A stretch of 64,000 bases of DNA from Chloroflexota bacterium (GTDB lineage: Bacteria; Chloroflexota; UBA11872): positions 1-64,000 of the forward strand of contig JAPOVQ010000023.1 in NCBI GenBank assembly GCA_026708035.1, given 5' to 3'. A program made the translations under genes and the position numbers. Positions 3,384-35,892 of this stretch are shown here, piece by piece. Numbering within the stretch: the first letter of the stretch is position 1; each line of letters opens with the position of its first letter. The notes under the pieces were generated by a model. The model worked only from the letters and a program-made list of their open reading frames with translations, did not search any database and was not told the DNA's origin.

Positions 3384-4007
3384 TCATCCGAACATCGACA
3401 GCTGCTGGCTCTCCGGCTCCGCGGGCTCGGCGGCGGGCGCCGGGCCCTCCAGCAGTTTCGGGATTAGCGCAAAGTCGCTGCGCAGCACGTCGCGAAGGCG
3501 CATTTGCCGCAGCGCCGCCGCCGGGTGATAGACGGGAAGGAACGTGCGCCCCTCGCGGCGGCGGGGCACCCCGCGCGCCCGCGAGATCTGCGCGTCGGAG
3601 AAGTGCGCCTGTAGCGCGTGCCGGCCCAGCAGCACGATCACCTTGGGGTCGATCAGCTCGATTTGCCGGTCCAGGTATGGCCGGCAGGCCTCCGCCTCAT
3701 CCGGCGCCGGGTCGCGGTTCTCGGGGGGGCGGCACTTGAGCACGTTGGCGATGAAGACCTCGCGCCGCCGCAGGCCGATGCCCTCGATCAGCTCGTCCAG
3801 CAATTGCCCGGCGGCGCCCACGAAGGGCCGCCCCTGCTGATCCTCGTGATAGCCGGGACCCTCGCCGATGAACATCACCGCCGCGTCGGCCGCGCCTTCG
3901 CCGGGAACGGCGTGCGTGCGACCCCGCGCCAAACGGCAGCGCGTGCAGCCCTTGACGGCGTCGGCGAGCACAGCCAGATCGCTGAAGGTGGGGAGGGCCT
4001 CCGCCAC
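3384..4007 (-). CDS. udg: Type 4 (Fe-S) uracil-DNA glycosylase
   Basis: 207 residues. It removes uracil from DNA as the first step of base excision repair. The family hallmarks are visible: four iron-sulfur cysteines (Cys21, Cys24, Cys92, Cys108), motif A GEGPGYHEDQQGRPFVG at 48-64, NVLKCRPPENR at 88-98 and the late HPAA motif (VYHPAAALR). The GTG start at 4007 directly abuts the TAG stop of dapA (4008-4010), so translation is probably coupled. The C-terminal tail after residue 185 is Pro/Glu rich and probably disordered. The order dapA-udg-rnj puts a DNA repair gene between a lysine-pathway gene and an RNA decay gene, a housekeeping cluster rather than a functional pathway. Confidence 0.93.
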   Translation of the reverse strand: MAEALPTFSDLAVLADAVKGCTRCRLARGRTHAVPGEGAADAAVMFIGEGPGYHEDQQGRPFVGAAGQLLDELIEGIGLRRREVFIANVLKCRPPENRDPAPDEAEACRPYLDRQIELIDPKVIVLLGRHALQAHFSDAQISRARGVPRRREGRTFLPVYHPAAALRQMRLRDVLRSDFALIPKLLEGPAPAAEPAEPESQQLSMFG

Positions 4008-4925: not shown

Positions 4926-5627
4926 GGCATTCCCCCCTGCGAGGCTGGTTCGCGCCTCAGGCGCGGTGCGGTCACCCCGCACGCGACCCCCGCCCGGAAT
5001 TGTACCCGCGACGCGGCAGCGTCCCATGGCAGCACCTTTGCCAGGTGTTGCACTTCGTTTGTGCATTTAGGGAATCCAGTTCGGTCAGGTAGATCGCGTG
5101 CCGGATTGGAGTAGCAGCGGGTCTCAGACCCGCCCGCATTCTGGCGGTCTCCAAACGACTCCGAAAGCGGGAACCCAGGCCAAGGCGGCGTACGTCAGAT
5201 CTGGGGACGCCGCGCGGCCGATTGCGAGATCGTGGCGGCACGGCTCGATCCGCCGTCAGCGGTGCGAGTTCCCGTCCCCTCGCCTTTCGCGGCAATAGCG
5301 GACGGGAGCGCGGGAATGGCGCCAGATCGTCCTTGGTCGCTAGGGGTGAATTGCCGCAAGCCACCAAGCACTCACCGCCGAGCGCCCCCGGAGTAGGCCG
5401 GCATGCCCTACAACCATCCTTGGCATGCCCGCTGTTCGGTATTTGTATGGTATTATCGCGGGCCGTGTGAGGGGGTCCCGCGCGCGGTGGCTGTGTCGTC
5501 GCTCCGGCAGGCTGGGCGTAATCCCCTGCCATCGCCGCCTGCTGGAGCAACGCGAACCGCCGGCATCGCTGCATCCGCCGCGTCCGCGGGGCCTCTTCCG
5601 CGCGGTCTGGGCGTCGCGAGTCCCGGC
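4926..5627. other. 700-bp non-coding stretch
   Basis: No convincing protein-coding frame: the open frames on both strands are short, lack family features and have no ribosome site. It contains a small GGGTCT/AGACCC hairpin near 5115-5135, which recurs in variant form at 17222 and 38512, and the AT-rich element at 5434-5460. I see no tRNA and no recognised riboswitch. A small RNA starting near 5460 cannot be excluded. Confidence 0.5.
5434..5460 (+). promoter_or_regulatory. Promoter-like AT-rich element, copy 1
   Basis: GTTCGGTATTTGTATGGTAT lies in otherwise very GC-rich sequence and closely matches the element at 18868-18890 upstream of the ImmA-like gene. TGTATGGT looks like an extended -10 hexamer. 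No gene is evident immediately downstream on the plus strand. Confidence 0.4.
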
Positions 5628-6128
5628 CTAGCCGTCCGCCTCGTGGCGCTCAATCAGCGCCCAGAGATCCTTGCTGTCCGGCCACTCGAGCGAGTGCCGC
5701 CCCACGAACACCTCGCGCACGATGCCCGCGGGATCGATGAGGACCACCGAGGGCCGCGCCATGTTCCACGACTCGAAGTTGACGCGGACGTAGACGCCGT
5801 AGTCGCGGACCATCCGCCGCTTGGGGTCGACCAGCACCGGGAACGGAAGGGCTTCACGCTTGGCGAAGGCGTCTACAACCTTGAGGCCCTGCGCAAAAAC
5901 GAAGGCGACGGCCACTCCCCGCCTCGTCCACTCGTCCAGCTCGACCTCGAGCCGCGCCATATAGCCGTGGCAGCTCAGTCACCAGACATGCCGCAGAAAG
6001 ACCAAGTAGAGCCAACCGTCGGCAAAGTCCTGCAGCTCGGTGCGCTCGCCGGTTCCAGCGACGTGGACATCGAAGTCCGGCGCGTGCTCGCCGACGGCGA
6101 GCGTCGTCGAGCCTTGGGATCGCGGCAT
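5628..6128 (-). CDS. Candidate selenocysteine-containing peroxiredoxin-like protein (in-frame TGA)
   Basis: Read from the ATG at 6128, one frame runs 166 codons to TAG at 5628-5630, interrupted only by TGA at 5979-5981 (codon 50). Residues 15-49 (HAPDFDV ... LVFLRHVW) and 51-166 (LSCHGYMARLEVEL ... PFPVLVDPKRRM ... ARPSVVLIDPAG) together make one complete AhpC/TSA-like thioredoxin fold. The TGA falls exactly where such proteins have the redox cysteine of a CxxC (here UxxC, with Cys53), as in the FYRGGWCPYC type motif. This is what a selenocysteine codon would look like; selenoprotein Prx-like UxxC proteins are known. The start is 9 nt after the permease stop, in line with the ABC genes. The alternative is a pseudogene with a nonsense mutation, but the rest of the frame is undamaged. 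Without recoding only the C-terminal 110 residues would be found by gene callers. Confidence 0.75.
5937..5981 (-). promoter_or_regulatory. UGA codon with candidate bacterial SECIS hairpin
   Basis: On the minus strand the TGA (5981-5979) is followed after 31 nt by a hairpin: bases 5954-5948 pair with 5943-5937 (7 bp, one G-U) around the loop AGGU. A G in the first two loop positions and this spacing agree with the bacterial SECIS pattern as I recall it. A competing hairpin starts 2 nt after the TGA: 5976-5971 with 5954-5949, extended by 5970-5968 with 5959-5957, loop CGGCUAUA. Both are inferred from base complementarity only. Confidence 0.5.
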
Positions 6129-6137
6129 GTCGGCGTC

Positions 6138-6956
6138 CTACGTCACGATGTCCCGGCGTCGAAATAGTACGACCGCCAGGCCGGTGCCGACGACGGCCAC
6201 TCCCGCCAGCACCACCGCTTCCAGCCACCCGAACTCCCCGGTCGCGAACTGCTCCAGCGGCCGCCAGTAGCGAAACAGCGACAGATGGCCCAACCACTCC
6301 AGCGGTTCGACCACCTCGGCAACCAGAAAGAGCACATACATCACCACGACGATGAGCGCGCTGACGCCGTAGGTGCGGCCCGGCTCCAGCAGGACCGTGG
6401 CCACGACCGCGGCAATCGCCGCGGCAGCCAAGCCGAAGAGCAGCAGCTGCACGTGCACCAGGACGATGTCGCTGGCGGGAATCGGCGTGTCGCCGGCCCA
6501 GGCGGCCACGCCGAGCAGCAGGCCGACCAGCGCGCCGGCCACGATGATCACCGCGCCCAGCGCCACCGCCGCCAACCGCGTGAGCAAAAATCGCTCGCGC
6601 GTGATCGGTTGCGCCAGCAAGACATCGAGGGTGTGGCGGCCGTAGGCCCGGGCAATGGTGCCGCCGCCGACCCACATGCCGAAGTAGGCGGCGAGAATGG
6701 GCAGCCAGGTGGTGAGCTGCGAGCCGAGGTATTGGAGAAACGCGCTTTGCTCGATGGCGGGACTGTCGAAGCCCCGACCCAGGAAGGCGGCGCGCGCCGC
6801 ATCGGGCATGGTTTCGAGGAACGCGTCGAGATCCAGGTCGCGCGACGATGGCCAGAGCGCCATGACCAACAGCGCGAGAATGAACAGACCCACGGTGAAC
6901 CAGAAAATCGCCAGGCGCCGATGCCGCAGGGTGTGCAGCAACAGATGCAGCGTCAC
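6138..6956 (-). CDS. ABC-2 type exporter, permease subunit
   Basis: 272 residues with six hydrophobic segments: a first near 16-33, a large loop to residue 80, then five helices to the end, the layout of ABC-2 permeases. The GTG start at 6956 overlaps the ATPase stop codon by 4 nt (GTGA), so the two are translationally coupled and almost certainly form one transporter. The loop after helix 1 (DLDAFLETMPDAARAAFLG) is typical of small-molecule or drug exporters of this class. Substrate unknown. The candidate selenoprotein follows after 9 nt and probably belongs to the same transcript. Confidence 0.85.
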   Translation of the reverse strand: MTLHLLLHTLRHRRLAIFWFTVGLFILALLVMALWPSSRDLDLDAFLETMPDAARAAFLGRGFDSPAIEQSAFLQYLGSQLTTWLPILAAYFGMWVGGGTIARAYGRHTLDVLLAQPITRERFLLTRLAAVALGAVIIVAGALVGLLLGVAAWAGDTPIPASDIVLVHVQLLLFGLAAAAIAAVVATVLLEPGRTYGVSALIVVVMYVLFLVAEVVEPLEWLGHLSLFRYWRPLEQFATGEFGWLEAVVLAGVAVVGTGLAVVLFRRRDIVT

Positions 6957-7846
6957 GTCGCGGCCTGCTGGTCGTAGTAGCGTAGAAACGCGTCTTCCAG
7001 GCTGGGCTCGTCGATGGTCAGATCGGTGACCTCGAAGCGCGCCAGCGTCTTGATCACCCGGTCCACGGACCCGGTGACTTCGAAGCTGATCGCAGCGTCC
7101 GCGCGTGTCACCACCGTGGCGCCCTCGAGATCGTCATCGGTGGGCGTCGGCCCCGCGAATCGGGCGTGGAACCGTCGCACCCGGGTTTCAGTCAGCACGT
7201 CGACACGCTCCACGGCCACGAGCCGCCCCTCGCGCAACAGGCCCACGCGGTCACACAGATGCTCGGCTTCCGAGAGGATGTGGGTGGAGAGGAAGATGGT
7301 GCGCCCTTCGTCGCGGTACTCGGCCAGGATGCGTCCAAACTCCTGCTGCACCAGCGGATCGAGGCCGCGCGTGGGCTCATCGAGGAGATAGAGCGGCACA
7401 TCGGCCTGCAACGCGCGCACGATGGCGACCTTTTGCCGGTTGCCGGTCGAGAGCGCCTTGATGCGGCGCGAGGTATCGAGGTCCAGCCGCTCGATGAGCT
7501 CGTCGGTGCGATGCACCGGCACCCCACCCATGCGCGCGAAGGCTCGCAGATAGGCCGCCACCCGCGTGGACTCATAGAGCGCGTCGGCGCTGGGCTGATA
7601 GCTCACGGAGCGCCGGGCCGCGGGCCCCTCCGCATGCACGTCGGCGCCGAAGATGCGCGCCGAGCCGCTGGTGGGCCGCATCAGGCCCAGCAGCAACCGC
7701 GCCGTGGTGGTCTTGCCGGCGCCGTTGGGACCCAGGAAGCCGAAGATTTCTCCCCGTTCCACCGTCAGCGACAGATCGGTCAACGCCTGCACGCTGCCGT
7801 AGGACTTCGAAAGCGACTCGGTGACGATAGGCGGCGCGTCGGTCAT
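6953..7846 (-). CDS. ABC-2 type exporter, ATP-binding subunit
   Basis: 297 residues from the ATG at 7846; the open frame extends to 7987 but without homologous sequence. Walker A GPNGAGKT is at 39-46, the ABC signature appears as LSTGNRQKV, and Walker B is LYLLDEPTRGLDP. The C-terminal 80 residues (after HILSEAEHLCDRVGLL) form the small beta-rich domain seen in CcmA/drug-exporter ATPases. It heads the minus-strand operon ATPase-permease-peroxiredoxin. The gene is divergent from the LON-domain gene, with about 150 bp of shared upstream region. Confidence 0.92.
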   Translation of the reverse strand: MTDAPPIVTESLSKSYGSVQALTDLSLTVERGEIFGFLGPNGAGKTTTARLLLGLMRPTSGSARIFGADVHAEGPAARRSVSYQPSADALYESTRVAAYLRAFARMGGVPVHRTDELIERLDLDTSRRIKALSTGNRQKVAIVRALQADVPLYLLDEPTRGLDPLVQQEFGRILAEYRDEGRTIFLSTHILSEAEHLCDRVGLLREGRLVAVERVDVLTETRVRRFHARFAGPTPTDDDLEGATVVTRADAAISFEVTGSVDRVIKTLARFEVTDLTIDEPSLEDAFLRYYDQQAAT

Positions 7847-7998
7847 GGGCGGCGAGTCCCCGATCAGGCCGGTGGCGGCGTGTTCGAAGGCGACTCTACA
7901 CGGCGTCGCCGCGTCGTGCAGTCTCGATGCGGTCCGAGTTCGCGGAAGGCCGAGGCGCCGCGCCAGGAGTTGCGGGGGTCCAGCCATTAGACTCGAAC

Positions 7999-15496: not shown

Positions 15497-16948
15497 ATGA
15501 CATTGTTCTGGTCGCGCGGCCAGCCCCGCTGGGTCGCGACCTTCCGAATTCTCGCCGCCGTCGCCATGGCGCTGGCGGCCTTTCTCATCGTTCGCGGCGT
15601 CGTTCTGGCCGCCGGCGATCCCGGCGGCGCGGACACCCTCGCGGCCGAGCCCGGCGCGGGCGTCGACTTCGTCTGGACGCTGACCTCCGGCGCGTTGGTG
15701 TTCTTTATGCAGGCCGGGTTTGCGCTGCTCGGCGCGGGCCTGATCCGCGCCAAGAACACCGTCAACTACCTGACGAAGAACATCCTGGACTTCGCCGCCG
15801 CCGGGCTGTCGTTCTGGGCCTTTGGGTACGCCTTCATGTTTGGCGGCTCGGGTCTGCCGGGAATGGAAGACGGCAACGCCTTCATCGGCTTTTCCGGGTT
15901 CTTCCTGGTGCGCGACGCATATGACGTGTCGACGACCAGCTTCTGGTTCTTCCAGATGGTCTTCGCCGCCACCACGGCCACGATCGTCGCCGGCGCGGTG
16001 GCCGAGCGCACCAAGGTGACGGCCTACCTGGCCTACGGCTTCCTCGTCACGGCGCTGATATACCCCATCTACGGTCACTGGATGTGGGGCGGCGGCTGGC
16101 TGGGCGGCGAGCAGCTCGAATCGTGGGTCGGCGCCGCCGCCGTGGACTTCGCCGGATCGGGCGTGGTGCACACCATCGGCGGAGTTCTGGCCCTGGCCGG
16201 CGCGGCCACCGTGGGCGCGCGGCTGGGCAAGTACGGACCCAACGGCGAAGTGCGGAGCATTCCCGGCCACAACATGGTCTACGTGGTGATCGGCATGTTC
16301 GTGCTGTTCTTCGGCTGGTTTGGCTTCAACGGCGGGAGCACGGTGGCGGGGAATGACCTGCGCATCGCGGTCATCATCACCAACACCTTCCTGGCCGGAG
16401 CCACCGGCGCGGTCACGGCCGCGTACCTGGGCCTGGTTCGCACGGGCCGCATCAGCGCGGCCAGCACCAGCAACGGCGCCCTGGCCGGGCTGGTGGGCAT
16501 CACGGCGCCCTGCGCCTTCGTGGCGCCCTGGGCGGCGGTGATCATCGGCGCGATTGCGGCGGTGTTGATGCTGGTGAGCGTCCACGTCGTCGAGCACCGG
16601 CTCAAGATCGACGACCCGGTGGGCGCGTCGTCGGTGCACGGCACCGCCGGCGTGTGGGGCCTGCTGGCCGTCGGCATTTTCGCCGATGGCACCTACGGCG
16701 AGGTGAGCGGGTTTATTGCCGGCAACGGCTCGCAGTTCGTGGCGCAGCTCATCGCGGCCATCGTGGCCGTCGCGTGGGCGCTGACTACGGGACTGCTGCT
16801 GTTCAACGTCCTCAAGCGGACGGTCGGCCTGCGCGCCTCACGCGAGGAGGAGCTGAGCGGGTTGGATCTGCCGGAGCACGGCGAGTCGACGTATACGCAC
16901 GACGACGCCGAGCCCGAGGCGGAACCGGCGCCAGAGCCAGCGACCTAG
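15497..16948 (+). CDS. amt: Ammonium transporter
   Basis: 483 residues with about eleven membrane helices after a hydrophobic N-terminal segment (16-39) that may be a signal sequence. The two pore histidines are recognisable in IYGHWMWGGGWL and in SSVHGTAGVWGLL. MQAGFALLGAGLIRAKNT marks the subgroup of Amt proteins with AGF instead of the E. coli PGLALFYGG start. The cytoplasmic tail (last 45 residues) is acidic and Glu/Pro rich. A good ribosome site (AGGAG) precedes the ATG. No glnK/PII gene is adjacent; the glnA gene is 23 kb away. The gene ends at a strong terminator. Confidence 0.93.
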   Translation: MTLFWSRGQPRWVATFRILAAVAMALAAFLIVRGVVLAAGDPGGADTLAAEPGAGVDFVWTLTSGALVFFMQAGFALLGAGLIRAKNTVNYLTKNILDFAAAGLSFWAFGYAFMFGGSGLPGMEDGNAFIGFSGFFLVRDAYDVSTTSFWFFQMVFAATTATIVAGAVAERTKVTAYLAYGFLVTALIYPIYGHWMWGGGWLGGEQLESWVGAAAVDFAGSGVVHTIGGVLALAGAATVGARLGKYGPNGEVRSIPGHNMVYVVIGMFVLFFGWFGFNGGSTVAGNDLRIAVIITNTFLAGATGAVTAAYLGLVRTGRISAASTSNGALAGLVGITAPCAFVAPWAAVIIGAIAAVLMLVSVHVVEHRLKIDDPVGASSVHGTAGVWGLLAVGIFADGTYGEVSGFIAGNGSQFVAQLIAAIVAVAWALTTGLLLFNVLKRTVGLRASREEELSGLDLPEHGESTYTHDDAEPEAEPAPEPAT

Positions 16949-34872: not shown

Positions 34873-35892
34873 TTAGGCCGATTCCAGATACCGCGCCAGC
34901 TCGTCGCGGGCGAACGTGGGCAGGGGAGTCGAGGCGTGGTCTGCCGTGAATATCGTTCCGACACTTCGGTTCACGACCGACCCGATCCGTGCCGCGTCGA
35001 TGCCAGCGTTCCGGAGCCTGGCGAGCGCGCGTTCGGCGGCGGCAGGATCGACCGACGCCAAGAGGGCGCCCGACGCAATGAGTCCAAGCGGATCGAGGCC
35101 CAGGGCGTCGCAGATGGCCCGGCACTCCGGATAGATGGGAAGGGCGTCGCCGTCGATCGCCAGGCCCACGTCGGCGGCCTCGGCCAGCTCGTGCAGCGCC
35201 ATGACCACGCCGCCTTCCGTCGGGTCGTGCATGGCGTGCACGACCGCACGCTCTTGGAGCAGAACTTCGGCCGCCGCGCGCACCGCAATGCCGGGGGAGC
35301 CTCGCAAGTCGGCCGCGGCGGCAATGACTTCCCGCGGGACCCCGCGCGCCCGGAGCGCCGGCGCGTGCTCCTCGGCCAGGATGGCCGTGCCTTCGATGGC
35401 GATCCCGCCGGTGAGGATGACCGCGTCGCCGACGCGCGCGCCCGACGTTCGCACCACGCCGTCGCGTGGCACGGTTCCCAGCAGGCAGCCAATCGCCATG
35501 GGCCGGTCCAAGCCCACCGTGATTTCCGTGTGCCCGCCAACCAGCGCCACGTCGTGCGCCCGCGCCGCCTGCGCCAGGTCGTCCAAGAGCCGACGGGCGT
35601 CGTCCGCGTCGATGCCTTCCGGCAGCAGCAGCGTGGTCACCAGCCAGCGGGGGCGCGCGCCGGCGGTGACGAGGTCGTTCTCATTGACCGCGAGCAGATC
35701 ATGGGCGAGTTGGGCGCTGCCGAAGGTGATCGGGTCGGACGCGACGACCAGGAGCTCGTCGCCGCCGAGGTCGAGCACGGCCGCGTCCTCCCCAATGGCC
35801 GCGCCGAGGACCACGTCGGGCGGCGGGGCGGGCACGCCGCGCAGGAATTGCCGGAGCAGTTCGGGCGGCAGCTTCCCTGCGGGCAGATTCAC
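34873..35892 (-). CDS. AIR synthase-related protein (HypE/ThiL-like)
   Basis: 339 residues. N-terminal GAAIGEDAAVLDLGGDELLVVASDPITF and NENDLVTAGARPRWL, then GGHTEIT and a C-terminal domain with HDPTEGGVVMALHELAEAADVGL: the AIR synthase (PurM) superfamily, closest in pattern to HypE-like archaeal and bacterial proteins of unknown function. The conserved ATP-binding aspartates are visible. HypE dehydrates a carbamoyl group for hydrogenase Fe ligands, but no other hyp gene is present, so that role is unsupported. It lacks the Cys/Sec-Lys N-terminal motif of SelD. Divergent from the PCMT-like gene. Confidence 0.78.
   Translation of the reverse strand: MNLPAGKLPPELLRQFLRGVPAPPPDVVLGAAIGEDAAVLDLGGDELLVVASDPITFGSAQLAHDLLAVNENDLVTAGARPRWLVTTLLLPEGIDADDARRLLDDLAQAARAHDVALVGGHTEITVGLDRPMAIGCLLGTVPRDGVVRTSGARVGDAVILTGGIAIEGTAILAEEHAPALRARGVPREVIAAAADLRGSPGIAVRAAAEVLLQERAVVHAMHDPTEGGVVMALHELAEAADVGLAIDGDALPIYPECRAICDALGLDPLGLIASGALLASVDPAAAERALARLRNAGIDAARIGSVVNRSVGTIFTADHASTPLPTFARDELARYLESA

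Follow-up and report, generated by a model that had tools for sequence, protein, structure and literature searches.

A peroxiredoxin-like UxxC gene with a probable selenocysteine codon beside an ABC exporter in a Chloroflexota bacterium

Introduction

The DNA analysed here (the window) is the stretch of 64,000 nucleotides at positions 1 to 64,000 of contig JAPOVQ010000023.1 from a Chloroflexota bacterium. One of its reading frames encodes a thioredoxin-like protein and is interrupted by a single TGA, which raises the question of whether this codon ends translation, is read as a standard residue or specifies selenocysteine (Sec). Sequence comparison indicates that the internal UGA almost certainly encodes the active-site Sec of a redox enzyme. 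With high confidence, the product is predicted to be a full-length cytosolic peroxiredoxin-like (Prx-like) thiol:disulfide oxidoreductase in which UGA is decoded as Sec50 by means of SelB and a downstream hairpin.

Gene structure and translation

The features discussed below are as follows, with the basis of each assignment in parentheses.
5628–6128, minus strand: predicted Sec-encoding gene for an AhpC/TSA (Prx-like) UxxC oxidoreductase (translation with TGA as U, Pfam)
5979–5981, minus strand: TGA codon 50, predicted to be read as Sec, the U of UxxC (translation, homologue comparison)
5970–5972, minus strand: TGC codon of Cys53, the putative resolving or partner Cys of UxxC, which does not vary across alignment A2 (translation, alignment)
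5937–5954, minus strand: candidate bacterial SECIS hairpin, 7-bp stem CGGCUCG/CGAGCUG and loop AGGU (folding, published rules, codon comparison)
6138–6956, minus strand: permease of the ABC-2 family, immediately upstream of the UxxC gene and separated by 9 bp from its start codon (ORF, synteny)
6953–7987, minus strand: ABC transporter ATPase, first gene of a likely operon, overlapping the permease by 4 bp (ORF, synteny)

The UxxC gene is a real bacterial gene. Its strand, left unspecified in the original prediction, is the minus strand, and it runs for 166 codons plus a TAG stop (5628..6128) when TGA is translated as U. The ATG start at 6128..6126 is preceded by an AGGA motif about 10 nt upstream. 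Retranslation agrees with the predicted 166-codon frame broken only at codon 50 (5981..5979), and the coordinates are right. The 166-residue translation begins with MPRSQG, ends with HEADG and carries its single U at position 50, in the context LVFLRHVW-U-LSCHGYMARLEVELDEW. Plain ORF calling yields a fragment of 110 amino acids from Met57 (5628..5960), the very truncation anticipated for standard gene callers; the present reading amends an annotation otherwise prone to automatic truncation. A match to Pfam AhpC-TSA (PF00578; 84.8 bits against a cut-off of 26) covers residues 12–139 and spans the TGA.

Predicted fold and active site

An AlphaFold2 model built from a 39-row alignment (pLDDT 87.5, pTM 0.85) has the thioredoxin/peroxiredoxin fold; together with the Pfam match, this bears out the proposal that the sequences on both sides of the TGA belong to one thioredoxin-like fold and places the protein in the AhpC/TSA superfamily. 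In the model, residue 50 directly precedes helix 51–62 and thus occupies the N-terminus of active-site helix 1. No signal peptide or membrane anchor is seen at the N-terminus of the protein, suggesting a cytosolic location.

An enzyme with this fold could act as a true peroxidase, that is, as a selenoperoxiredoxin, rather than as a disulfide oxidoreductase. AhpC/TSA is the top Pfam match, Bcp and Prx proteins come closest among solved structures (Bcp4 and Prx2; TM 0.81–0.83), and a profile alignment pairs Cys53 with the peroxidatic residue of TxxU peroxiredoxins. The same alignment, however, places Sec50 in the column of the catalytic peroxiredoxin Thr, and Arg46 stands for the Pro of PxxxTxxC, so that the PxxxT(S)xxC/U active site of true peroxiredoxins is not found in the window protein; RxxxUxxC is present instead in all Sec-containing members of alignment A2. 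Placing UxxC or CxxC at the start of helix 1 follows thioredoxin and ResA, the latter being the protein with the best sequence match in the PDB (4nmu, 1.4e-6). The description of the protein as peroxiredoxin-like therefore holds for the fold and fails for the motif. These substitutions make a thiol-disulfide oxidoreductase likelier than a classical peroxidase, and the peroxidase is judged the less probable function, though by no means a negligible one.

For the favoured oxidoreductase, the same residue positions suggest that Sec50 would be the nucleophile at the start of helix 1. Turnover would form an Se–S bond between Sec50 and Cys53 (a selenenylsulfide intermediate), which a cellular thiol reductant would then reduce. 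The substrates would most likely be disulfides or related oxidized compounds, and possibly hydroperoxides.

Selenocysteine machinery and the genetic code

The source genome (3.46 Mb in 36 contigs, 96% complete) contains all four components of the Sec machinery that the prediction had proposed looking for: a tRNA-Sec with a UCA anticodon (71 bits), SelA (416 bits), SelB (score above the cut-off) and SelD (377 bits). SelD itself has one in-frame TGA, in the motif GAGUACK, which fits the UxxK motif described for Sec-containing SelD (PMC13188914). The SelD gene (L019/L124; contig C15:47642-48568) has a hairpin, UGGCGCA-CGUGA-UGCGCCA, at spacing 32. A second, weak match to the SelD profile lies within the window at 35107–35877 on the minus strand (67 bits, below the cut-off, without a TGA) and is probably another AIR-synthase-like ATP-binding protein.

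Taken alone, the sequence is compatible with Sec-free read-through, in which a near-cognate or suppressor tRNA, or a variant code, would insert Trp, Gly or another standard residue. This reading is very unlikely: the homologous position is occupied by Cys (Ser in divergent relatives) and by neither Trp nor Gly, the genome encodes full Sec machinery, and the hairpin downstream is under selection. TGA also serves as the ordinary stop of window genes 3384–4007 and 6953–7987. Since it still ends neighbouring genes, there is no general reassignment of TGA, and a variant genetic code was rejected.

Conservation of the TGA codon

Homologues of the UxxC protein were found in 20 of 24 genomes of the order at E ≤ 1e-8, and exactly one TGA occurs in each of the 31 matches. 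In the 30 close homologues (45–99% identity, 20 genomes) it is invariably at codon 50. Some genomes have two gene copies, with about 63–68% and about 48% identity to the window protein. A phylum-wide comparison of 400 genomes gave 80 matches, in all of which the site codon could be read: it is TGA in 61, Cys in five and Ser in eight, and the other six are Sec-peroxiredoxins with Thr in the Sec50 column and a TGA three codons on. The Ser-containing sequences are divergent non-Sec relatives. A direct Sec/Cys exchange within one clade is seen between L110 (TGA) and its relatives L096 (TGT) and L085 (TGC), at 60–69% identity, on a tree with few Cys rows. Together with the five Cys codons, this exchange upholds the assignment of the TGA to the redox-Cys position of the family; Cys, TGA or, in divergent relatives, Ser occupies the site, and random stops do not occur among the homologues. 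A dN/dS ratio below 1 both before and after the TGA indicates that purifying selection acts on both sides of it.

A pseudogene or sequencing error with a chance TGA would agree with the 110-residue fragment that most gene callers would report. This explanation has almost no likelihood and was rejected on the TGA conserved in 30 of 30 close homologues, which come from 20 independently binned genomes and have no other stop; the TGA in 61 of the 80 phylum-wide matches and the low dN/dS after it count against it as well.

SelB is present in most genomes with the UxxC gene. Two genomes with the TGA gene, G022 and G080 (88–89% complete), gave no SelB match at E ≤ 1e-60, and no tRNA-Sec was detected in G022 and G016; all three are metagenome-assembled genomes (MAGs), 86–89% complete, and SelA is present in each. 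G023 is without SelA, SelB and tRNA-Sec and also without the UxxC gene. A tblastn search of plasmids gave no match. The predicted UxxC selenoprotein occurs in Chloroflexota, including sponge-derived ones, and indicates that members of this order, of which many are represented by MAGs and some come from sponges, depend on selenium for thiol redox enzymes.

The SECIS-like hairpin

The predicted hairpin with a loop G is present as CGGCUCG-AGGU-CGAGCUG (5′ arm 5954–5948, loop 5947–5944 and 3′ arm 5943–5937, minus strand). Its stem begins 24 nt and its loop 31 nt past the TGA, with G at loop position 2. Published rules for bacterial SECIS elements specify a loop of 3–9 nt, a stem of 4–16 bp, a spacing of 16–37 nt and an MFE of −7.5 or lower, together with a G within the first two loop positions (PMC13188914). 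With a spacing of 31, a 4-nt loop, G at the second loop position and an MFE of −12.9 kcal/mol, the window hairpin agrees with all four constraints, and its stem has 7 bp. An Rfam scan of window positions 5500–6300 matched no family. Considered by itself, the window gene has a hairpin that is only mildly unusual, synonymous recodings matching its quality with P of about 0.03, so that the weight falls on comparative tests across species.

Among 16 orthologues, codons +8 to +14 after the TGA show zero synonymous differences, against a gene mean of 0.34; the stem-loop corresponds exactly to codons +9 to +14 (permutation p < 5e-5 for synonymous invariance). The second paralogue has the same hairpin, its loop reading CGGG. 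Eighteen more distant homologues have a hairpin with an AGUU or GGUU loop at spacing 25, with eight pairs, 89.6% pairing and 13 double-compensated changes. Its covariation score of 0.373 compares with 0.159 for shuffled alignments (0 of 500 shuffles as high) and falls to 0.15 or less when the partner is slid by 1–3 columns. This covariation shows that the hairpin is kept, and the element thus lies 6 nt earlier in those clades, although the protein alignment has no gaps in that region. The AGUU hairpin at spacing 25 is absent from the distant matches L075, L076, L091 and L092 (NGQL type) and L080, L086 and L093. Agreement with the published limits, synonymous constraint and covariation in relatives all support the SECIS character proposed for the hairpin. 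The shift between subfamilies, combined with the synonymous invariance of the hairpin codons, provides a clean natural test of what bacterial SECIS elements need.

Two separate polypeptides, with translation ending at codon 50 and restarting from the ATG that the window gene has at codon 57 to give the 110-residue protein, are extremely improbable and were rejected on the poor conservation of this Met: most orthologues have Leu at codon 57, the thioredoxin fold would be split with Cys53 missing from the second product, and the synonymous constraint on the hairpin would be left unexplained. For decoding as Sec, SelB with Sec-tRNA(Sec) would recognize the hairpin 31 nt past the UGA and insert Sec50, giving the 166-residue protein.

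Genomic context and further candidate selenoprotein genes

The ATPase, permease and UxxC genes lie on one strand and nearly touch, as anticipated by the proposal of an ABC exporter operon. The ATPase–permease–Prx-like order is kept in the genus (L023–L026) and beyond it, in L036/L053, in L055 and in the second paralogue (L057, L058 and L062); the window ATPase and permease queries gave no match in the flanks of the first paralogue (L027–L035). The UxxC selenoprotein may be co-expressed with the ABC-2 exporter, and their conserved pairing offers a lead to function. The second UxxC paralogue shares a contig with selB in several genomes (G009, G010, G011, G012, G013 and G015), the two being about 20 kb apart.

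The selenoproteome of the source genome was sampled through one family, AhpC-TSA. In each of four further genes of this family, a single in-frame TGA supplies the U of a UxxC motif (FWUTAC, FWUGTC, FFUGIC and HWUSHC). The genes are located as follows.
Contig C14:14684-15049 and 16464-16829: UxxC genes L119 and L120 (in-frame TGA)
Contig C13:21613-21981: UxxC gene L121 (in-frame TGA)
Contig C1:197228-197599: UxxC gene L122 (in-frame TGA)

L119 and L120 look like a tandem pair, with Pro/Thr-rich, low-complexity N-terminal regions and bacterial SECIS-like hairpins at spacing 21. Sec peroxiredoxins of the TxxU type (LDFTGGUR) occur in other Chloroflexota (L084, L100, L104, L105, L108 and L111). 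On balance, it seems rather probable that this Chloroflexota lineage harbours a largely unreported expansion of UxxC selenoproteins with a thioredoxin fold, with at least five AhpC/TSA genes and SelD in one genome, including a Sec-only subfamily paired with an ABC-2 exporter in which the SECIS element has shifted by 6 nt from one clade to another with no break in protein colinearity.

Comparison with known selenoproteins

The best NCBIfam match of the window protein is the SelL-related redox protein NF040769 (65.6 bits over residues 16–112, below the curated cut-off of 120 bits), which is matched by every member of alignment A2. SelL proper has UxxU. The selenoprotein peroxiredoxin PrxU (NF040737, TxxU) shares the fold and superfamily of the window protein, which scores only 28.5 bits on that model against a cut-off of 270 and, unlike PrxU, carries Sec in place of the Thr, three residues nearer the N-terminus. 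In the ResA/TlpA thiol-disulfide oxidoreductases the redox pair occupies the same place in the fold, whereas the window protein has Sec in place of the first Cys and shows neither a signal peptide nor a membrane anchor at its N-terminus.

The literature searched contained no paper on sponge Chloroflexota selenoproteins, though one may exist. Prx-like UxxC selenoproteins of PF00578 were already reported in the Sargasso Sea survey (PMC1088965), 'Prx-like 1' is of the same PF00578 UxxC kind (PMC2398784), and a Prx-like thiol:disulfide oxidoreductase of PF00578 with UxxC or UxxU is listed in Table 1 of PMC13188914 (e.g. WP_010940744.1), in line with the original prediction that such proteins are known in bacteria. 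The window gene belongs to this known, uncharacterized kind; the member is new and the kind is not. It has in common with the published proteins the Pfam family, UxxC in place of TxxU or TxxC, a bacterial SECIS element, its size and the lack of an assigned function, and differs from them, as compared by description, in forming a separate Chloroflexota subfamily tied to an ABC-2 exporter.
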